Source: Actinomycetes bacterium
GTDB taxonomy: Bacteria > Actinomycetota > Acidimicrobiia > Acidimicrobiales > Aldehydirespiratoraceae
Direction: 5' to 3'
NCBI GenBank assembly: GCA_024276495.1
Contig: JAJRXC010000003.1
Span: 1 to 64,000 of the forward strand
DNA length: 64,000 bases
Both the position numbers and the translations under genes were made by a program. Shown here one piece after another: positions 53,939 to 64,000 of the stretch (position 1 is the first letter of the stretch; the number at the start of each line of letters is the position of its first letter). A model generated the notes under the pieces. That model worked only from the letters and a program-made list of their open reading frames with translations, did no database searches and was not told the origin of the DNA.

Positions 53939-54015
53939 CGGGACGTGGCGCAGCTCGGTAGCGCACCTGCTTTGGGAGCAGGGGGTCGGGAGTTCAAATC
54001 TCCCCGTCCCGACCA
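53939..54015 (+). tRNA. tRNA-Pro(UGG)
   Basis: Acceptor CGGGACG/CGTCCCG closes perfectly, with CCA encoded at 54013-54015. D-arm GCGCAGCTCGGTAGCGC, anticodon stem CCTGC/GCAGG with loop TTTGGGA (anticodon TGG), T-arm GGGAGTTCAAATCTCCC. Its 3' end lies ~100 bp before a tyrosine integrase, so it is the probable attachment site. Confidence 0.95.
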
Positions 54016-54117: not shown

Positions 54118-55254
54118 GTGGCCAACCGGCGGACGTTTGGCGGTATCCGAAGGTTGACCTCCGGGCGATGGCAAGCGAGCTATCTCGATCCCATCACACG
54201 AAAACGAGTCCCGGGAGAGTCAACGTTCGCCAGCAAAGCTGACGCGAACCGATGGCTGTCCTCAGTCGAGTTGGCCCTGCAGCGTGGTGACGTTCTCGAT
54301 CGCGCCGGGCGAAAGAAGACTCTCCGCGAGTACTCCGACTCTTTCATGGCCACAAAGACAGCCCTACGGCCAAAAACGCGCGAGCTCTATGGCTATCTCC
54401 TCGAACGACACATCCTTCCGCCACTCGGCGAAGCACCCCTGACCGCCATCACTGCCGGGGCGATCCGCGACTGGAACGCTGGCCTACGCTCCGGACGTAT
54501 CGGAAGCACGACCGCAGCGAAGGCGTACCGACTACTGCGACAGATACTGCAGGGCGCGGTGGATGACCGGTTGATCGCGAAGAACCCTTGCCAAATCAAG
54601 GGGGCGTCGGTCGAGCGGTCCAAGCCTCGAACAATCCCCTCCATTGAGGACGTCTTCGCACTGGCCGATGCAATCGATGCGAGGTTTCGAGCGATGGTGC
54701 TACTCGCCGCCTTCGGAGGACTGCGCAGAGGTGAGTGCCTCGGCCTAACTCGACGACACCTCAATCTTTCGGCCACGCCGCCGACGGTCACCGTCGAGCA
54801 GTCCCTCGTCCACACCGACTCCTCGGGTTTCATTCTCCAACCGCCGAAGACCGATGCCGGCGCTCGCACTGTCGCCATCTCACAGCATCTCACCAAGGAA
54901 CTCGAGAGCCATCTCACAACTCACGGACGCAGTGACCCGTCTGCATTCCTATTCGAAGCCGAGACACGCGGGGAACGCAGCTTTCGGCGCTCATGGGAAC
55001 TCGCCGTCGCCGCTACGCGGATCGAATGCACGTTCCACGACTTGCGACACCTTGCCGGCACTCTCAACGCCGCAGCCGGAGCGACGCTCAAAGAATCGAT
55101 GTCCCGTATGGGCCATACCTCACCTGACGCCGCGCTCCGGTACCAGCACGCGGTCGCCGAAAGAGACAGTGCAATCGCTGGAGCGATCGACCTCATCATC
55201 GAAGCCTCAGCGCCGCCCCTTCCCTCCGACGAGGACCTACATCGACAAGCATGA
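54118..55254 (+). CDS. Tyrosine recombinase (integrase)
   Basis: 378 residues from GTG 54118. N-terminal arm-binding AP2-like part (SGRWQASYLDPITRKRV), SAM-like core-binding domain (KTALRPKTRELYGYLLERHILP), then the catalytic domain with GGLRRGE (Arg), HDLRHLAGT (His-x-x-Arg), MGHTSPDAALRYQH (His and nucleophile Tyr). All catalytic residues are intact. It probably inserted the island at the tRNA-Pro. Actinobacterial plasmid/phage-type. Confidence 0.94.
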   Translation: MANRRTFGGIRRLTSGRWQASYLDPITRKRVPGESTFASKADANRWLSSVELALQRGDVLDRAGRKKTLREYSDSFMATKTALRPKTRELYGYLLERHILPPLGEAPLTAITAGAIRDWNAGLRSGRIGSTTAAKAYRLLRQILQGAVDDRLIAKNPCQIKGASVERSKPRTIPSIEDVFALADAIDARFRAMVLLAAFGGLRRGECLGLTRRHLNLSATPPTVTVEQSLVHTDSSGFILQPPKTDAGARTVAISQHLTKELESHLTTHGRSDPSAFLFEAETRGERSFRRSWELAVAATRIECTFHDLRHLAGTLNAAAGATLKESMSRMGHTSPDAALRYQHAVAERDSAIAGAIDLIIEASAPPLPSDEDLHRQA

Positions 55255-55484: not shown

Positions 55485-55525
55485 CACGCGGAACCAACCG
55501 ACTTGCTTGGAAGGAGGACTTGTCT

Positions 55526-56602
55526 GTGGCAAACAAACGGCTCCCAACTGAAACGCGGATCTGCCGCGACGTCGAACGAGTTCTCGCCCAGAGCGTCCCT
55601 CCGGGCTGGTCGCTGAAGGCGAAGCCCGACGTGGCGGCCGGCAGCAAGCGGATCGACCTCCTGGTCGAGGTGGCCTCGCCGGGTGGCGAGACGGCCCGGT
55701 TCGCGGTCGAGGTGACCCGTGCGATCGAACCGCGATCGGTCCCGATGGCCGCGGAACAGATCTCGACGCTCACCGCCTCCGCTATGCCTGATGCGATCCC
55801 GGTCGTCGCGGCCGGCTACCTGTCGCCGCGAACCCGCGAGCTGCTCGATGACTTCGAGGTGGGCTACATCGACACCACCGGGAACGTCCGCTTGGTCTCA
55901 ACGACACCGGGGCTTGCCATCCTCACCCAGGGGGCTGACACCGACCCGTGGCCACAGGCCGTCGATCTGCGGTCGCTTCGCGGTCGTGGCGCGGCCCGGG
56001 CGATCCGGGCGATCGTCGACACCGCGCCCCCGTTCGGTACGCGAGAGCTCGCCGACTCGACCAACGCCTCGGCCGCCACGGTGTCACGGGTGCTCGAGCT
56101 GCTCGAACGCGAGGCCATCGTGACCCGTCAACCTCGGGGTCCCGTGCTCGCGGTCGACTGGCAGGCGGCGATCCGGCGCTGGGCGCTGGATTACGACCAG
56201 ACCACCTCCAATACGCCCAGCACATTCCTCGACCCGAGAGGCCTCCCTTCGATCGAGAAGAAGCTCAGGGCCGCGAAGCTGACCTACGCCGCAACCGGTG
56301 CCTTCGCAGCGCAGGGGTTCAATCCCGTCGCTCCGGCGAGGACCGCCACCCTCTACGTCGACGACGCGATCAAGATCGCTGATCGCCTCGGGCTTCGGGA
56401 GGCCGAGGCAGGTGCCAACGTGGTGCTCCTTGAACCCTTCGATCCGGTGGTCTTCGAACGTGTGACCATTCGCGACGGCCTACGGTGCGTCGCGGCCAGC
56501 CAGCTTGCTGTCGACCTGCTCACTGGTCCCGGACGGGAGCCGTCACAGGGCGAAGAGATACTTGAGTGGATGAAGGAGAACGAAGATGCCTGGCGAACCT
56601 GA
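55526..56602 (+). CDS. AbiEi-like regulator/antitoxin with winged helix
   Basis: 358 residues from GTG 55526, 8 bp after AAGGAGG; a TTG at 55520 is too near that site. An N-terminal alpha/beta part with KRIDLLVEVA and RFAVEVTRA (a nuclease-like core) is followed by a winged helix (GTRELADSTNASAATVSRVLELL, ~180-200) and a C-terminal domain with no known family. The nucleotidyltransferase gene overlaps its end by 17 bp. In AbiE-type (type IV) pairs the HTH protein represses the operon and opposes the transferase toxin. Confidence 0.65.
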   Translation: MANKRLPTETRICRDVERVLAQSVPPGWSLKAKPDVAAGSKRIDLLVEVASPGGETARFAVEVTRAIEPRSVPMAAEQISTLTASAMPDAIPVVAAGYLSPRTRELLDDFEVGYIDTTGNVRLVSTTPGLAILTQGADTDPWPQAVDLRSLRGRGAARAIRAIVDTAPPFGTRELADSTNASAATVSRVLELLEREAIVTRQPRGPVLAVDWQAAIRRWALDYDQTTSNTPSTFLDPRGLPSIEKKLRAAKLTYAATGAFAAQGFNPVAPARTATLYVDDAIKIADRLGLREAEAGANVVLLEPFDPVVFERVTIRDGLRCVAASQLAVDLLTGPGREPSQGEEILEWMKENEDAWRT

Positions 56603-57389
56603 CCCCCTCTACGTCCGCGCCCGCGCCGCGCTCCTCGACGCGACCGACGCGCTGGCCGACCAACTCGACGCGCTCGTGCTTGTCGGCGCGCAGGCCATCT
56701 ACCTGCACACCGGCGATGCCGACCTCGCGGTGGCCGAGTACACCACCGATGCCGACTTCACGATCGGCCCAGCCCAGCTCGACGACTCCCCCCTTCTTAC
56801 CGAGTTGCTCGCGGCGAGCGGCTTCACCACTCGCGAACACCCCGGGGGCTGGCTCAGCCCCGATGGCATCTATGTCGACCTGATGGTTCCCGAGGCGCTG
56901 GCCGGGCCGGGCACGCGCGGCGCCCGGCTCGGCGTGCACGGCAAACGGGTTGCCCGTCGAGCGAAGGGCCTCGAGGCCACGCTCGTCGATCGGGAACCGA
57001 TGACGATCACGGCGCTTGATCCGACCGACACCCGAAGCGCCACCATGCTGGTCGCCGGTACCGGGGCGCTACTGATCGCGAAACTCCACAAGATCGCCGA
57101 ACGGACCACCGACGGCGACCGCGTACGTGACAAGGACGCACTCGACGTTCTCAGGATCCTGCAGGCAACCGAGACCGGCGACCTCGCGGAGCGACTCGGT
57201 CGCCTCCGCGCACACGATCTCAGCGAGGCCGTCACCGAGGAAGGCATCGCGCAGCTGGACCCGCTGTTCGGCCAGATCGAGTCAGTCGGTGTCGAGATGG
57301 CAGTTCGGGCCGCCGGCCTCGACGCCGATCCCGACACGATCGCCGCATCCATGACAGCGCTCGTCTCGGATCTCGTCGCGGAGCTGTAG
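56586..57389 (+). CDS. Nucleotidyltransferase, AbiEii-like toxin candidate
   Basis: 267 residues from ATG 56586. NTase fold: VLVGAQAIYLHTG (GxxA helix) and TTDADFTI (metal-binding Asp-x-Asp) near residues 30-58, then a middle lysine-rich LLIAKLHKIAERT part as in AbiEii/MenT proteins. Such toxins add nucleotides to tRNA ends and slow growth. The helper regulator overlaps upstream. Family is secure; toxicity is inference. Confidence 0.68.
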   Translation: MPGEPDPLYVRARAALLDATDALADQLDALVLVGAQAIYLHTGDADLAVAEYTTDADFTIGPAQLDDSPLLTELLAASGFTTREHPGGWLSPDGIYVDLMVPEALAGPGTRGARLGVHGKRVARRAKGLEATLVDREPMTITALDPTDTRSATMLVAGTGALLIAKLHKIAERTTDGDRVRDKDALDVLRILQATETGDLAERLGRLRAHDLSEAVTEEGIAQLDPLFGQIESVGVEMAVRAAGLDADPDTIAASMTALVSDLVAEL

Positions 57390-57439
57390 CGCCGGAAACA
57401 CCAGCGCACTCCCCTCCCGAGGTGAGATCCTGGACAGCT

Positions 57440-58057
57440 ATGGCGACCTGGTTCACCGCCGACCTCCACCTCGGCCACGGCAACATCATCGACTACTGCG
57501 ACCGGCCCTTCGCCGACGTCGATGCGATGAACCGCGCCCTGATCGACGGCTGGAACGAGGCGGTTGCTGAGGACGACTCCGCGTGGGTACTCGGCGATTT
57601 CGCCTTGGGCAAGATCGCGGAGACGCTCCGAATCGCCGGCGAGCTGAACGGTCACAAGGTGCTCCTCGCCGGCAACCACGATCGCTGCTGGGCCGGCAAC
57701 GGACGGCGGTCCGAAGGCTGGACCGAGCGCTACCTCGATGCCGGTTTCGCCGAAGTCGTCCACGGGTCGGCCAAGGTGGCCATCAACGATCGCACGGTTC
57801 TGGTGTGTCACTTCCCGTACCGCGGTGACAGTCACGACCATGACCGGTTCATCGAACATCGACCGACCGACAAGGGGTCATGGCTGCTGCACGGGCACGT
57901 CCACGAACGATGGGCCCAGCGGGGCCGAATGATCAACGTCGGCGTCGATGCCACTGGATTCCGTCCGATCAGCGACACCGAAGTTGCAGCGCTCATCGAC
58001 GCCGGTCCCGAGAACCGGCCCACGGCATGCCAACGGGTTCCGGGGCAGGTCGCGTAG
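57440..58057 (+). CDS. Calcineurin-like metallophosphoesterase
   Basis: 205 residues from ATG 57440. All five motifs: FTADLHLGHGN, VLGDFALG, LLAGNHDRCW, LVCHFPYRG, LLHGHVHERW. A small phosphoesterase like those found with phage and TA genes; may act on nucleotides or RNA ends. It lies 50 bp after the NTase gene and is convergent with the XRE gene. Confidence 0.88.
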   Translation: MATWFTADLHLGHGNIIDYCDRPFADVDAMNRALIDGWNEAVAEDDSAWVLGDFALGKIAETLRIAGELNGHKVLLAGNHDRCWAGNGRRSEGWTERYLDAGFAEVVHGSAKVAINDRTVLVCHFPYRGDSHDHDRFIEHRPTDKGSWLLHGHVHERWAQRGRMINVGVDATGFRPISDTEVAALIDAGPENRPTACQRVPGQVA

Positions 58058-58080
58058 CCGAGCGGCCGGCTTCGGCGATG

Positions 58081-58587
58081 TCAGCGGGTGCGCTTCGGTA
58101 CCGCGGTCTTCTCGTACATCCCGCTCTCTTCTGCGATCTCGACCATCCGATCCAGTGACTCTCGAGCCCGACGCCGGAGGGTGGCGTGGAGATCGAAGTC
58201 GAGGGCTTGGGCGATCTCGTTGAGGCGGGCGAGGTTCGCACTCTGGTAGTCGTTGGCCTCGTACCGGTTGATCGCGGCGGTCTTCAGCCCAAGGCGCTCC
58301 GCCAGCTGGGCCTGGGTGAGCCCCGACGCGATGCGGGCTTGGATGAGAGCGCGGCCGAGGTCGACGATGTCCACGATCGCGATCTCGTCCGCCGTCGCCA
58401 ACGCGTCGAACTCCGCAAGGTCGTCATCGAACTCGGCGATGTATGACCGTAGGTGCGCGACGGCGAGCTTGTTCGCCGTCGGATCCGTCTCCTCGTTGGC
58501 GACCGGGCTCTCGAGGTCGCCGAGCTGTCGGGCGAACTCGTCGCGGCGAGCGGCGGTGATCTTGCGCTGGTGAAGGTTCTTGATCAT
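58081..58587 (-). CDS. XRE-family regulator, possible antitoxin
   Basis: 168 residues from ATG 58587. Helical N-terminal half with DDDLAEFDALATADE, then a Cro/C1 HTH (ARIASGLTQAQLAERLGLKTAAINRYEANDYQSANLARLNEIAQALDF in pieces). Like MqsA/HigA antitoxins, the HTH is C-terminal. TACA-N7-TGTA at 58641-58655, 54 bp upstream, may be its own site. Divergent from the Fic gene. Confidence 0.78.
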   Translation of the reverse strand: MIKNLHQRKITAARRDEFARQLGDLESPVANEETDPTANKLAVAHLRSYIAEFDDDLAEFDALATADEIAIVDIVDLGRALIQARIASGLTQAQLAERLGLKTAAINRYEANDYQSANLARLNEIAQALDFDLHATLRRRARESLDRMVEIAEESGMYEKTAVPKRTR

Positions 58588-58688
58588 CTCGGAGGGCTGA
58601 GGGAGAGGCGTGGAACTCGGACTACAGCCATACTCATTACTACACATTCGTTGTACTGATCTCGCATTATCCGTTGACCTTCGCCTAT

Positions 58689-58723
58689 TTTAAGTTACGG
58701 TTATGAAGTAACCGATACTTAAA
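58689..58723. promoter_or_regulatory. 15-bp-arm inverted repeat before the Fic gene
   Basis: TTTAAGTTACGGTTA-tgaag-TAACCGATACTTAAA; 13 of 15 positions pair. It ends 6 bp before the Fic ATG and covers its AAAGG ribosome site, in a very AT-rich patch. A strong operator candidate for the divergent XRE protein, silencing Fic until release. Confidence 0.7.
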
Positions 58724-58729
58724 GGACCC

Positions 58730-60010
58730 ATGGCATCACACTTGCAGAAGCACTGGGACGCACAGTTCCAGGGGATGAGTCGACGCGATCGACAGGGGTG
58801 CCTCTACGACGCGTACCTTCCCGACCCGCTCGCGGGCTGGAGGCTGTCGATCCCGGCCGACGTCGCCGCCGACGTCGCCGATGCGGAGTCAGCCGTCCGC
58901 AGATTGAATGACGCGGGCACCGCTCACGTGAGTCTCGAAGGCCTGGCGCGCTTCTTGCTGCGAGCGGAGTCGGTCGGGTCTTCCAAGATCGAGGGCCTCG
59001 AGGCTGCGGCTCGTCGCCTCGCTCAAGCCGAGGCCGCGATCGCGCTCGGTGGTGACGCGAACGACCGCGTCGCGATCGAGGTCATCGGCAACATCGCCGC
59101 GATGGAATCCGCGGTCCAGCTCGCCACCAGCGCCGAGCCCTTCGAGCTCGACGATCTGCTCTCGATTCACCGCACCCTGATGGACAACTCCCCAACCCCC
59201 GAGCTTGGTGGTGTCGTTCGGGAGGAGCAGAACTGGATCGGCGGGAGCTCGTTCAACCCCTGCAGCGCCGCCTTCGTACCGCCACCACCCGAGCACCTCC
59301 CGGACCAGTTGGCCGACCTGCTCCGCTACGTCAACGGCGACGACCACTCCCCGCTCGTCCAGGCCGCTATCGCTCACGCCCAGTTCGAGACCCTCCACCC
59401 CTTCGCCGACGGAAACGGTCGCACCGGCCGAGCACTGATCCACGTCGTACTGCGACGACGGGGACTCGCCCCAACGTTCGTGCCACCGATCAGCCTCGTC
59501 CTCGCCACGTGGTCCGACGACTACGTCAACGGACTGATGACCTACCGACACCTCAGCGACCCCGACAGCGCCGAGCGGTCCACGGCTGCGGTCGAGTGGC
59601 TGCGCATGTTTGCCACCGCCACCAGCCGAGCCTGCCGAGACGCCGAGGCCTACAGCGAAGACATCGACGAGATCACCGCGACCTGGCGATCGAAACTCGG
59701 CCGCGTCCGCGCCAACTCCAGCACCGATCTGCTACTGCGGGTCCTGCCAGGCGCGCCAATCATCACGGTCGAGTCGGCCAGCAAACTGATCGGACGATCC
59801 AAGGCACGCACGACCGACGCAGTCAATGCGCTCGCTGAGGCAGACGTGCTCCGTCAGCGAAACGTCGGCCGGCAGCGCTATCGAGTCTTCGAGGCGACCG
59901 AGGTGCTCGACCTTTTCACCGGCCTCGAACGAGCGCTCGCCAGCCCCACGGGCGACACCCGAAGTGCACGACCGGTCCGCACCGTCCCTCAGCGGCCCGA
60001 AGGACACTGA
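58730..60010 (+). CDS. Fic-family AMPylating protein
   Basis: 426 residues from ATG 58730. Fic motif HPFADGNGRTGR starting at residue 223, inhibitory SSKIEG at residues 84-89 (S/TxxxEG), so class II with an N-terminal self-inhibiting helix. A C-terminal winged helix (~345-405, SASKLIGRSKARTTDAVNALAEADVL) is also present. Fic proteins add AMP (or other groups) to target proteins. Divergent XRE and the overlapping operator suggest tight control. No separate FicA antitoxin, consistent with class II. Confidence 0.9.
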   Translation: MASHLQKHWDAQFQGMSRRDRQGCLYDAYLPDPLAGWRLSIPADVAADVADAESAVRRLNDAGTAHVSLEGLARFLLRAESVGSSKIEGLEAAARRLAQAEAAIALGGDANDRVAIEVIGNIAAMESAVQLATSAEPFELDDLLSIHRTLMDNSPTPELGGVVREEQNWIGGSSFNPCSAAFVPPPPEHLPDQLADLLRYVNGDDHSPLVQAAIAHAQFETLHPFADGNGRTGRALIHVVLRRRGLAPTFVPPISLVLATWSDDYVNGLMTYRHLSDPDSAERSTAAVEWLRMFATATSRACRDAEAYSEDIDEITATWRSKLGRVRANSSTDLLLRVLPGAPIITVESASKLIGRSKARTTDAVNALAEADVLRQRNVGRQRYRVFEATEVLDLFTGLERALASPTGDTRSARPVRTVPQRPEGH

Positions 60011-60486
60011 GGCAAGCCGCCGGCGGGCCCGCTTCGGCTATTTCCGACGTCAGTCACGTCCACGATTCAACACGGATGCCACAAGCGACCCCGACCTGGC
60101 GGAGTCCTCTCACGGCACATCCGGCGCAGTGCTTCGCACAAGTCGCAAGGGCTGGGACGACCACTCAGCGAAGCAGGAACCAGCCTTCGTGCTCGACCAG
60201 GAACGAGGCGGCCGGGTGCGCCGCCCCTCAGGGCACGCTTGCCCCAATCGAGATGACGGATAGAGGACGTCGTCGACGCATCGTGCCGGTAGCCCGGATG
60301 CGGTGCAGAAGATTCGGAGGTGGTCGAGGGACGGCGCGAATCCGACTCGCCATCATCGGGGTAGCGCACCGGCTCACCGGTTCGGACCGCGGTGATGGCA
60401 CCGCCGATCACCTTCATCCAGTCACCGCACCAGAACTTCCGGCCGTCGTCGAGATCGAGCGGAGGGATCTCGGCCATGATGAGGCC
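60011..60486. other. Gap with no supported gene; possible gene remnant
   Basis: 476 bp between Fic and the next gene. A minus-strand open frame (60067-60477) starts plausibly (MAEIPPLDLDDGRKFWCGDW) but turns into Arg/Pro/Ser-rich sequence of the kind that a GC-rich antisense frame gives, and its start is only 9 bp from the next plus-strand gene. I take it as a remnant or chance frame. Confidence 0.4.
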
Positions 60487-61026
60487 ATGGCACGAACCTG
60501 GTTGTCGATCACCGTGGAACTCGTCTCGGGACGAGGCGAGGACTTCTGGCCACGCCCCGGCCGCGTTATCGTCGCCGCCCGATCACAGACCTTCGCCGCG
60601 CTCGCCGATGCCATCAACGCCGGCTTCGCTCGGTGGGACCTCAATCACCTCAGCCAGTTCGACCTCGCCGACGGCACGACGATCGCCAACACCGACCCGT
60701 TCTTCGATGCACCCGAGGAGACGGTGGAGATCCGTACGGCCAAGCTGTCGACGCTGAAGCTTGGCGATCAGTTCGTCTACACCTTCGACTTCGGCGACGA
60801 CTGGCACCACCTCTGCACCGTCGGACCCGAACGGGTCGATCCCGAGGAGGTCTACGGGATCACGCCGAATCGGCCGGTGCCGTACTGGGGCTGGGGCAGC
60901 CTGCCCGACCAATACGGCCGCCGCTGGGCAGACGACCACGACGAGGGCCCTGTCCCGCCCGATCCCGAGGGGCGAGACCTCCCGGCGTTCTTTCCGCCCT
61001 GGCGCTGGAGGGCCGAACAACCGTGA
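60487..61026 (+). CDS. pRiA4b ORF-3-like protein
   Basis: 179 residues from ATG 60487. LSITVELVSGRGEDFWPRPGRVI at the start and VYTFDFGDDWHHLCTVGP with the typical Trp/Asp/His core of the pRiA4b ORF-3 family, found on plasmids, IS elements and defence islands. Function unknown; often near nucleases or transposases. It follows the Fic gene by 476 bp. Confidence 0.82.
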   Translation: MARTWLSITVELVSGRGEDFWPRPGRVIVAARSQTFAALADAINAGFARWDLNHLSQFDLADGTTIANTDPFFDAPEETVEIRTAKLSTLKLGDQFVYTFDFGDDWHHLCTVGPERVDPEEVYGITPNRPVPYWGWGSLPDQYGRRWADDHDEGPVPPDPEGRDLPAFFPPWRWRAEQP

Positions 61027-61105: not shown

Positions 61106-61708
61106 ATGTTTGTTGTACGCGGCCATGATGGCGACATGGAATCCCTTTCCGATCACAAGGACTGTCGAACGATCGTCGTGGACGAGGACGTCTTTCGCGA
61201 GTTGCAGCACCAAGCGGAGCCCCTGGTCGACGATGCGAATGCAGTGCTCCGCCGCGTGCTGGGACTCGACGTGGCATCTTCGGGGACTTCCCTCCCACCG
61301 GTTGCCAGCCCATCCAACGGCAGCTCTACACGGAGTGCGACCAAGCCGAAGCCGGGGACGAGGAAGAGAACTTCCGGCAAGTCCCAGCGCAAGCGGGCAC
61401 CGAAGGGTTCTCTCCTTCCGGAGGCGGACTACGAGCTGCCGCTTCTCGAAGCACTTGATGAACTCGGAGGCTCCGGACCGGCGTCAGTCGTGGTCAATCG
61501 TGTCGGAGAGAAGCTGCACGACAAGCTGACGGCGGTCGACCTCGAACAAGTCAGCTCTGGTGAGGTGCGTTGGAAGAATCGGGTTCAGTTCGTCCGACTC
61601 GGACTCATCAAGGCCGGCCTGATGAAGGACGACTCGCCGAGAGGAACATGGGAGATCGCCGAGCCAGGACGGATACGTCTGGGCCAGACCACGGGAACAG
61701 CCGCGTGA
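61106..61708 (+). CDS. Winged-helix protein, Mrr_N-like C-terminus
   Basis: 200 residues from ATG 61106 (agaagg at 61095; ATG 61136 also possible). N-terminal ribbon-helix-like part (TIVVDEDVFRELQHQAEPLVDDANAVLRR, in pieces), a basic linker with Lys/Arg/Ser, then a winged-helix like the N-terminal DNA-binding domain of Mrr restriction enzymes (SSGEVRWKNRVQFVRLGLIKAGLM, RGTWEIAEPGR). No nuclease domain follows in this chain. Overlaps the GTG of the ATPase by 4 bp, so the two work together. Confidence 0.7.
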   Translation: MFVVRGHDGDMESLSDHKDCRTIVVDEDVFRELQHQAEPLVDDANAVLRRVLGLDVASSGTSLPPVASPSNGSSTRSATKPKPGTRKRTSGKSQRKRAPKGSLLPEADYELPLLEALDELGGSGPASVVVNRVGEKLHDKLTAVDLEQVSSGEVRWKNRVQFVRLGLIKAGLMKDDSPRGTWEIAEPGRIRLGQTTGTAA

Positions 61709-64000
61709 CTCCGAGCGAGCTTTGTATGGCGCTGATGCGCGCCGACTCGGAGGATCAGGTCGTCGAGCTCCTCTCCGAGAGCGGGTACTGGAGCGACCCG
61801 GCACTGTGGCGATACCTCGGCGACAACGAGAACAACTACGGCGCCATCGGTAACCAACAGAGCGAGTCGGTCGCCGCGCTGACCGAGAAGCTCATCAATG
61901 GCGTGGATGCAAGGCTGATGAATGAGTGCCTTGAGTCAGGCGTTGCGCCAACGGCATCCGGTGCGCCGCAGGACATGCGGACCGCAGTCGCTCAGTTCTT
62001 CGAGCAGCACTCTGCGCGCCTGCCAGACGACGCCGGTGTAATCGCGCTCTGGCCGGACGCCAAGATGACCGAAGAGGCTGATCGGCTGACGCTGGCCGCG
62101 ACGGGGTTCGGTCCGAAGTCGGGTTCAGGGCGAATGTGTCTGACGATTGCTGACGCTGGCGAGGGGCAGACCCCAGACGACTTCCCCACAACATTCCTCT
62201 CGCTGCAGAAGAGCAACAAGCTGCGAGTGCCCTTCGTGCAGGGAAAGTTCAACATGGGTGCTACTGGCGCACTCCAGTTCTGCAGCCCAGCCCACCGGCT
62301 GCAGCTCATCGTCTCCCGGCGCAACCCAGCTCTCGTCTCGAACGGAGGAAGGGACCAGGAGTGGGGGTTCACTGTTGTGCGGCGAGAAGCACCATCTCAC
62401 GGCGCACGGAGCTCGGTATTCACCTACCTGGCTCCAGCTGATCCGAAGTCGGGGCGAGACGGCCAGGTGCTCTCCTTTCCAGCAGACTCGTGGCCCATCT
62501 TCCCCACGGCTGACAAGAATGGACGCGACGCGTATGCACGCAACGCTTCGTATGGGAGCCTTGTGAAGCTCTACGAGTACAACCTGGATGGCAGCCGATC
62601 GAGGGTCGTCGGCTCAGGAGGAGGCCTCCTCCAACGGGTCGATTTCGCTCTTCCCGAGCTCGCACTCCCGATACGCCTCTACGAGTGCAGGCCTACCTAC
62701 CGAGGCCACTCTGGGAGTTTCGCGACGAACGTCCTCGGCGTTGTGGCCAGGCTCGAGCGCGACAAGGCAGACAAGCTCGAAGACGGGTTCCCGATCGGCC
62801 ACGTTCTTCGCCTCGAGGGACGAGAAGTGAGAGTTCGCGCCTACGCGTTGAAGGGCTCCGCTCGTGAGTATCGTTCGGGCACCAGCGCCATCGTGTTCTC
62901 GATCAACGGACAGACTCATGCGACGAAGGGAACGGATTTCTTTCGGCGCGGCAAGACCGTGGGTCTGAGTCAACTCGCCGACTCGCTAATCGTCGTCGTG
63001 GACTGTTCAGACATTGACGGTCAGCTCCGAGAGGACATGTTCATGAACAGCCGAGACCGGCTGTACAGCACCCCCATGACCCGCCAACTCGAGGCCGGCC
63101 TCGAGAGATTCCTCAAAAACGATCCCAGCCTGCGAGATCTCAAGAACAGGCGTCGCGAAGAGGAGATCAGAGACCGGCTCGATGAGGCACGCCCACTGGC
63201 CGACGCACTTTCGGATCTGGTCCAGCACACGCCAGGTCTGTCCAGGTTGCTGGGGGGTGGACCTACGATTCCTTCTCCCTTCCCGAAGTCGGGGACTGGA
63301 CGGGGAGACGGGAAGGCCACGTTCGAGGGGAAACGGTTCCCCACCTTCTTCCGATTCCGCAACAAGGCCAGCGGCGAGAACCTCGAACGGGTCGCGCACC
63401 TTGAATCGACAGTCCGTCTCAAGTTCGAGACAGATGCGCAGGACGACTACTTCCACCGCGATTCTGAACGCGGCGCGTTTGAGGTGGACCTGTTCGAGGA
63501 GATCGAGGGGCATTGGAAACCGCTAAGCGATCTGTCCTTCACGGGTCCGACATCCGGCGTTGCTGGCCTCTCCTTCGAGCTTCCCCCGACTGCGGTCATC
63601 GGTGAGCGCCTACGGGTCCGTATACGAATCACCGACCCCTCACGAGTTGACGCATTCGAGCTGGAGGCGGTCCTGACCGTGGCTTCACCGGCACGTCGGT
63701 CGACAGGTACTACCGGAAAGGACCGAGCGGCCAATTCGGGAGCAGGCCAGAACGACGAAGCGAGCAAGCTTGCGTTGCCCAACATCATTCCTGTGCGCGA
63801 GGACGATTGGGAAGACCATGGGTTCGATGAGCTATCCGCTCTGAAGGTCGTCGGACAGGGCGAGAGCGAGTCGGGCCAGGAGGTCTACGACTTCTACGTC
63901 AACTACGACAACAAGCACCTACTCAGCGCCCAGAAGGACCCGAGCCGCGACAGCGAGGCGCTCAGGGCTCAGTTCGTCTACACCCTGGTCCTCTACTCGA
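61705..64000 (+). CDS. Large GHKL ATPase, partial (runs off window)
   Basis: GTG 61705 opens a frame with no stop to the window edge, at least 765 residues. GHKL ATP site: N box LTEKLINGVDA with Glu61, Asn65 and Asp68, G1 box ADAGEG at 149-154, G2 region QGKFNMGATGAL at 179-190. This is the Hsp90/MutL/MORC/histidine-kinase type ATP pocket. The region ~200-430 looks like a MutL-type transducer or S5 fold, and a long charged tail follows. No histidine kinase phospho-site or HSP90 C-terminus is visible. Coupled to the winged-helix gene; function unknown, a defence role is a hypothesis. Confidence 0.8.
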   Translation, partial: MTPSELCMALMRADSEDQVVELLSESGYWSDPALWRYLGDNENNYGAIGNQQSESVAALTEKLINGVDARLMNECLESGVAPTASGAPQDMRTAVAQFFEQHSARLPDDAGVIALWPDAKMTEEADRLTLAATGFGPKSGSGRMCLTIADAGEGQTPDDFPTTFLSLQKSNKLRVPFVQGKFNMGATGALQFCSPAHRLQLIVSRRNPALVSNGGRDQEWGFTVVRREAPSHGARSSVFTYLAPADPKSGRDGQVLSFPADSWPIFPTADKNGRDAYARNASYGSLVKLYEYNLDGSRSRVVGSGGGLLQRVDFALPELALPIRLYECRPTYRGHSGSFATNVLGVVARLERDKADKLEDGFPIGHVLRLEGREVRVRAYALKGSAREYRSGTSAIVFSINGQTHATKGTDFFRRGKTVGLSQLADSLIVVVDCSDIDGQLREDMFMNSRDRLYSTPMTRQLEAGLERFLKNDPSLRDLKNRRREEEIRDRLDEARPLADALSDLVQHTPGLSRLLGGGPTIPSPFPKSGTGRGDGKATFEGKRFPTFFRFRNKASGENLERVAHLESTVRLKFETDAQDDYFHRDSERGAFEVDLFEEIEGHWKPLSDLSFTGPTSGVAGLSFELPPTAVIGERLRVRIRITDPSRVDAFELEAVLTVASPARRSTGTTGKDRAANSGAGQNDEASKLALPNIIPVREDDWEDHGFDELSALKVVGQGESESGQEVYDFYVNYDNKHLLSAQKDPSRDSEALRAQFVYTLVLYS

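Follow-up and report, generated by a model that had tools for sequence, protein, structure and literature searches.

GHKL ATPases have been found in restriction-modification (R-M) loci before. In the available part of PMC2292703, published in 2008, MORC and paraMORC1-5 ATPases are placed in such loci and DNA looping is proposed for them; about 70% of the MORC loci have a superfamily 2 (SF2) helicase neighbour, and a minority have a methylase or an endonuclease and no helicase. The accessible portion of PMC12137116 gives a demonstrated anti-phage function for VcSduA, a GHKL-Shedu (paraMORC3) protein, which is thus an example of a GHKL ATPase with a part in defence. R-M-like gene sets are also seen in MzaABCDE and in a predicted system related to it, and the latter is strongly associated with MORC-family proteins according to the sections of PMC9523054 at hand. 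BREX, in the partial accounts used here, methylates host sites, has an ATPase and keeps unmethylated phage DNA from replicating. Here we describe a locus from an Actinomycetes bacterium, found at the end of a stretch of 64,000 nucleotides (the window), which makes up positions 1-64000 of a 69,509-bp contig (G000:C37); coordinates past 64000 continue the same numbering. It consists of a putative DNA-binding protein (P0002), a GHKL-S5 ATPase (P0001) and a putative DNA methyltransferase (P0003), and it appears to be an unannotated R-M relative of the MORC/paraMORC kind. We consider it somewhat better than an even chance that this is a mobile three-gene R-M-like cassette built around a MutL/MORC-type ATPase with an exchangeable adaptor. 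The reading is based on the gene set, its recurrence, the exchange of the upstream gene, the motifs of the ATPase and the methyltransferase, and the predicted GHKL-S5 fold; the cassette is called mobile because its island has both integrase and relaxase genes and because phage-like contigs carry it too.

The window ends inside the second of the three genes. P0002 (61106-61708, + strand, 200 amino acids), the candidate adaptor or reader, directly precedes P0001 (61705-64152, + strand, 815 amino acids; L002:1705-4152), of which 61705-64000 lies in the window, and the GTG start of P0001 at 61705 overlaps the stop of P0002 (GTGA overlap). P0003 (64154-65434, - strand, 426 amino acids; L002:4154-5434) ends tail-to-tail with P0001, 1 bp apart on the opposite strand. 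An earlier note, made from the letters of the window, had described a coupled pair of an Mrr_N-type protein and a GHKL ATPase. The coupling is confirmed by the overlap, and the identity of the two proteins by the Mrr_N match and the ATPase motifs described below, but the idea of a two-gene unit had to be given up, as the set most often includes the methyltransferase. The presence of the methyltransferase in the set points to an R-M-like logic.

P0002 matches Mrr_N (PF14338) at residues 110-190 with an E-value (E) of 6.4e-12 and 45.9 bits, against a Pfam cutoff of 29.5. Its residues 21-75 weakly resemble the N-terminus of SeqA (E 0.011 in NCBIfam, with a score that falls far short of the cutoff), and this pattern is retained in five of the six other aligned proteins having that N-terminal part. 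The N-terminus of SeqA is a ribbon-helix-helix. P0002 is an Mrr_N-type putative DNA-binding protein with a ribbon-helix-helix-like N-terminus. P0003 matches N6_N4_Mtase (E 5.9e-11) and contains motif I as DPFGGGGTT together with TSPPY, both of which are conserved in the alignment; it is an intact putative site-specific DNA methyltransferase. The SPPY form is commoner in enzymes that make N4-methylcytosine. In another genome (G010:C52, L127 8593-15708) an ATPase relative is followed by one other gene and then by a convergent protein of 944 amino acids, which matches the P0003 profile with 30% identity by BLAST and is possibly an alternative methyltransferase.

The earlier note had judged the ATPase, from its layout, not to be a known kinase, Hsp90 or gyrase, and our profile searches support its being unusual. 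P0001 had no match at E ≤ 1 in Pfam, PADLOC or PHROGs, by which its assignment to a known system was ruled out at the profile level, and its single NCBIfam match (E 0.2) was far below the cutoff; four ATPase relatives and four upstream proteins had no NCBIfam match at E ≤ 0.001. The membership of P0001 in the GHKL superfamily is certain. Residues E61, N65, D68, D153, G155, G157, G183 and G188 (numbering of the L019 relative) are identical in all 77 aligned rows, the window's protein included, and correspond to the N-box E/N/D, the G1 DxGxG and the G2 glycines, which are ATP-binding motifs. A model was made from this 77-row alignment for the L019 relative (821 amino acids, 62% identical to P0001), with a predicted local distance difference test (pLDDT) of 86.9 and a predicted template modelling score (pTM) of 0.85. 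Residues 39-493 of the model were similar to Hsp90 (6xlg; Z 19.6, root-mean-square deviation (rmsd) 4.6, 301 aligned), MORC3 (5ix2; Z 17.7, rmsd 4.1, 301 aligned) and MutL (1b63; Z 15.1, rmsd 4.6, 290 aligned). The basic residues K292 and R453, which served as the S5 test, are invariant in 77/77 rows. A GHKL fold followed by an S5 domain, like that of Hsp90, MORC and MutL, is thereby predicted. In a viral fold search the GHKL-S5 part also matched phage RIIA proteins, for example KVP40 RIIA (E 2.0e-6). A second model covering the C-terminal 276 residues (pLDDT 90.5, pTM 0.55) has an immunoglobulin-like (Ig-like) sandwich (best Z 9.2, rmsd 3.8, 113 aligned) and beyond it an alpha/beta part with conserved W707, N738, D740 and N741.

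The ATPase shares with the MORC and paraMORC proteins, as far as they are described in the available part of PMC2292703, the N-terminal GHKL and S5 domains, a frequent C-terminal extension, nearby DNA methylases and a sporadic spread across phyla. However, the S5 motif GhXhhpXXRhl given there for MORC was present in none of the 77 rows (residues 256-500), and an SF2 helicase pattern, common beside MORC, was seen within 5 kb of only one of the 43 methyltransferase-bearing loci described below, by regular expressions on script-called genes. The ExxxH of the C-terminal S5 of paraMORC2 occurred at one column in at most 2/77 rows, and the Hx[ST]xD of the paraMORC4 TIR domain and the C-terminal HxH of paraMORC5 each in at most 1/77; Pfam gave no TIR match and, at E ≤ 1, no match in P0001 to the C-terminal PD-(D/E)xK nuclease (DUF4263) of paraMORC3/GHKL-Shedu. 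Membership in MORC or paraMORC2-5 was rejected on this motif scan and domain search. By its description, paraMORC1 combines GHKL-S5 with its own C-terminal extension and has MORC or HNH neighbours. The cassette ATPase might belong there; its model has a C-terminal extension, and an HNH gene was seen behind it in one locus (L089, below). The exchange of the upstream gene seen in the cassette is not described for MORC or paraMORC in the portion of PMC2292703 available.

The other described systems also differ from the cassette. VcSduA has the C-terminal DUF4263 nuclease that Pfam did not find in P0001, and the accessible text of PMC12137116 mentions no methyltransferase with it. For MzaABCDE, as partly described in PMC9523054, there was no AIPR or Z1 match on the available contig, which ends at 69509, and no PADLOC match of P0001 at E ≤ 1. 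BREX, in the same partial accounts as above, has four to eight genes, whereas the cassette has three and a GHKL ATPase, and the PADLOC matches listed for its proteins, which for P0003 were the best 25 of 54, included no BREX model. More distant ATPases in L015, L016 and L128 (24-25% identity) have a cytosine methyltransferase nearby (annotated, in L128 recognised by eye), and in L015 helicase-related and phospholipase-D-like genes follow the ATPase, which is not the case in the cassette family. L128 (7314-16237, G024:C32) encodes a 25%-identical ATPase and the C5-cytosine methyltransferase-like protein, followed by large genes; it is perhaps a classical MORC-type R-M locus. Distant homologues on plasmids (L010, L011, L013) are near phosphoadenosine-phosphosulfate-reductase-family genes, with DUF4007 in L011 and L013, and these neighbourhoods are reminiscent of sulfur-based DNA modification. 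The earlier note had proposed an undescribed defence unit. For the exact three-gene cassette the word undescribed stands within the literature searched, which excluded most subscription papers and gave no description of it; for MORC/paraMORC ATPases in R-M loci it does not, as these have been known since 2008 (PMC2292703, available part).

A scan of genome contigs with the alignment gave 444 ATPase relatives, and the best 80 loci (L017-L096) were retrieved. Using a profile built on these loci, we found the P0003 family in 43 of them, tail-to-tail after the ATPase in 39 and elsewhere within 3.1 kb in four; 12 loci with less than 1.3 kb downstream were not judgeable. In the 39 tail-to-tail loci the gap ranged from -56 to 453 bp with a median of 8 bp. 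By organism names, the methyltransferase-bearing rows span 11 phyla, and ATPases without it occur in more, archaea included. Since relatives keep the neighbourhood across phyla, the gene arrangement is more than chance. Among 149 related genomes, a set that includes the window's own, P0003 homologues (E ≤ 1e-15) occurred in two, both tail-to-tail with the ATPase, and none was found without the ATPase beside it. Outside its own genome the ATPase was matched in 4 of 148 related genomes, and when 396 genomes were drawn from the phylum, three weaker matches came up besides the window's genome. Phage records had no P0001 match; plasmid records had seven distant ones and no P0003 match at E ≤ 1e-20. 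A helicase or nuclease neighbour was considered as a constant part of the cassette and rejected. Two loci without the methyltransferase have another gene directly after the ATPase that encodes a possible effector, namely an HNH endonuclease (E 5.1e-6; L089 12365-13354), the only HNH among 10 neighbour proteins scanned, and a SIR2-like protein (E 1e-12; L068 4769-5806).

Directly before the ATPase, one of four upstream families was present in 51 of the 80 loci: type a (Mrr_N) in 3, type b (about 60-120 amino acids) in 24, type c (mostly about 200 amino acids) in 13 and type d (about 340-430 amino acids, with a start that is ribbon-helix-helix-like by eye) in 11. Type a genes precede the ATPase also in L004, L006, L017, L018 and L019, and in a quick tree of the 77 ATPases type a with the methyltransferase forms a single clade (support 97). 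The four families are mutually unrelated, with a pairwise profile comparison probability of at most 7.2% (a against d), and the scanned members of three of them reached no curated Pfam or NCBIfam cutoff. In the sister loci L024 and L026 the ATPases are 81% identical, the methyltransferases 48% identical and the upstream genes unrelated; at the DNA level the two loci align along almost all of the ATPase gene (77% over 2.5 kb), and outside it along 191 bp only. In the 14 loci of type b, the divergence of the upstream gene tracked that of the methyltransferase when the ATPase was controlled for (partial r 0.53, permutation p 0.001); with four loci, type a was too small for this test. Within the ATPase, the Ig-like domain co-varied with the methyltransferase, with a small effect (partial r 0.27, p 0.001, 42 loci). 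The C-terminal alpha/beta domain was rejected as the co-varying part (partial r 0.10, p 0.109).

In the reading that we favour, the methyltransferase would mark host DNA at its own site, and the small upstream DNA-binding protein would bring or load the GHKL ATPase onto DNA. The ATPase dimer would close on DNA upon ATP binding, as dimers of MutL, Hsp90 and MORC do. Unmethylated incoming DNA might then be restrained or processed; it may be cut, either at an active site hidden in the cassette proteins or by a nuclease of the host, or it may only be held. A protective effect of methylation, the adaptor role of the upstream protein, the effector role of the ATPase and defence as the result are all inferred. 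For C. elegans MORC-1, topological entrapment and condensation of DNA were reported in the part of PMC8277788 available. A restriction free of nuclease, in which the adaptor loads a MORC-like GHKL clamp on unmethylated DNA and the DNA is trapped or compacted topologically and not cut, would be a specific form of this mechanism, and we regard it as unlikely.

Several observations weigh against the cassette with an exchangeable adaptor. The methyltransferase was absent from 25 of the 80 loci despite at least 1.3 kb downstream, and from all 21 judged loci of a 27-row ATPase clade (support 100), which indicates that the ATPase can do without the P0003 family; within 6 kb of the 25 loci, another methyltransferase candidate was given by regular expression only in L020. 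One related genome (G034) has a type a gene and the ATPase, while a P0003 homologue was not matched in it at E ≤ 1e-15; little sequence follows the ATPase before the contig stops, and another methyltransferase could lie beyond. None of the four upstream families was present in 29 of the 80 loci. P0002-like genes (E ≤ 1e-4) occurred in six of the 149 genomes, and three of these (G018, G044, where the match is a weak one, and G131) had no ATPase match. The exchange is reversed in L033 and L037, where the methyltransferases are 89% and the upstream genes 91% identical and the ATPases 71%. In the 12 loci of type c co-divergence was weak (partial r 0.22, p 0.058). The six loci of type d showed none (-0.15, p 0.64), and their upstream gene tracked the ATPase instead (0.77, p 0.008). 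Finally, PADLOC families were not enriched near 53 sampled cassettes, which bears on the proposed defence role. Neighbours (98 of 287 eligible proteins, no more than two from each of the 53 loci, the upstream genes of L034 and L084 removed by hand) were compared with 91 control proteins. The control came from 17 genome stretches within the phylum of the window and was not phylum-matched to the loci. At E ≤ 1e-25 the neighbours had eight PADLOC families, none with more than two members, and the control 31, largely kinase- or cysteine-desulfurase-like by name among the 25 listed.

The strongest alternative is a conventional R-M system, in which the C-terminal alpha/beta domain of the ATPase would be a metal-dependent nuclease of a new type, while the upstream gene would act as a transcriptional controller that delays restriction until the methyltransferase has acted. 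Transcriptional controllers of this kind occur in type II R-M systems. The position of the upstream gene directly before the ATPase, sometimes overlapping it, fits such a role, as do the Mrr_N domain of type a and HTH_17 in the upstream gene of L034 (E 1.1e-5, just below the cutoff). DndB, which fills the upstream place in L084 (E 1.3e-97) and is partially matched in L058 (E 8.7e-11), is claimed to be a transcriptional regulator in the available part of PMC10853773. The occurrence of P0002-like genes without the ATPase would also fit, and for the role of the upstream gene alone the controller is a strong rival to the adaptor. Types c and d are, however, large for a controller of this kind. For the nuclease, conserved polar residues gather in the C-terminal domain (W707, D734, N738, D740, N741, K749), and [DE]xK is found at column 747 in 58/77 rows, but the window's protein has AxK there. 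No nuclease family or fold was found by Pfam, PDB sequence profile or fold lists, which were filled by the Ig-like domain, so that the last ~125 residues were barely covered and never searched alone. Taken together, we consider a conventional R-M system rather unlikely. One of the P0002-like proteins without the ATPase, with ribbon-helix-helix and Mrr_N-like parts, is encoded at L130 9410-10063 (G018:C66); the next gene encodes a protein of 134 amino acids.

The cassette is carried by a mobile-looking island, which the earlier note had called defence-like. Upstream of it, a tRNA-Pro(TGG) gene (53939-54015, + strand) adjoins a tyrosine integrase (54118-55254, + strand; Phage_integrase E 5.5e-11). 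The tRNA gene is the probable integration site of the carrier element; no repeat of its 3' end of at least 15 bases was found on the contig. The ATPase and methyltransferase genes have a G+C (GC) content of 61.7% and 62.5%, and positions 1-53900 of the window 68.4%. Accessory genes fill the interval between integrase and cassette (55520-61026): a possible AbiEi-like regulator (55520-56602; weak match, E 0.037), a 267-amino-acid protein without any match, a metallophosphoesterase-like protein, an XRE-type regulator, a PRiA4_ORF3 protein and a Fic-family gene (58730-60010, + strand; Fic E 1.2e-22, PADLOC SoFic E 4.1e-70), which is island context and lies outside the cassette. On the other side, P0003 is followed by a TrwC/MobF relaxase of the carrier element (P0004; 65799-69086, - strand; L002:5799-9086; TrwC E 1.1e-78) with its own RecD-like helicase part, and then by the contig end at 69509. 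The earlier note had proposed a look past 64000 for Z1, AIPR, nuclease or helicase genes. What follows is the methyltransferase and the relaxase with its RecD-like part; of the 5.5 kb that remain, P0003 and P0004 were scanned, and Z1, AIPR and nuclease families had no match in them, and no Z1 or AIPR gene was among the 10 contig proteins scanned. The rest of the genus, six genomes of which three are less than 90% complete, gave no ATPase match, so that the locus is not chromosomal in all relatives, a condition under which the earlier note would have given up its proposal in part.

The same cassette is found on phage-like contigs. Seven IMG/VR contigs carry the ATPase, and four of them (L100, L102, L103 and L104) also the methyltransferase. 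Phage genes share three of these contigs: L103 has tail and head genes, L102 an endolysin gene and L104 an integrase gene. For L100, four proteins were scanned, and PHROGs gave no match to them. A 597-kb IMG/VR contig (L105) has a distant ATPase (26% identical to P0001) without the four upstream families and without a P0003-type methyltransferase. These contigs, the integrase and relaxase of the carrier, and the absence of PADLOC enrichment nearby would be consistent with a role in the biology of the element itself, in which the methyltransferase and the ATPase silence or organise the carrier DNA, or form an addiction pair through which prophages and integrated elements are kept stable. However, integrases made up only 3 of the 98 sampled neighbours (in the control, with the first 25 of its 71 families listed, none was seen), and the neighbour families are largely housekeeping among the first 25 of 96 listed, so that many copies are not visibly on elements; scatter and modular exchange also resemble R-M systems. 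We regard a role of this kind as distinctly unlikely. That the upstream gene and the ATPase form one system and the methyltransferase is an unrelated neighbour, often co-inherited, would account for the 11 of the 25 methyltransferase-absent loci that have an upstream family with the ATPase (eight type b, three type d), but it is very improbable given the tail-to-tail order with a median 8-bp gap in 39 loci and 11 phyla and a methyltransferase family that was not found alone in the 149 genomes.

With its few, defined genes the cassette lends itself to the question of whether unmethylated DNA can be policed by a MutL/MORC-type ATPase that has no linked helicase and perhaps no nuclease either, a question that bears on the origin of eukaryotic MORC silencing from bacterial conflict systems. 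The upstream genes swapped around a constant ATPase amount to an experiment made by nature on the targeting of such a machine. If restriction without a nuclease were true, the cassette would represent MORC-based silencing in a minimal bacterial form, in which methylation is the mark of self and exchangeable adaptors do the targeting.

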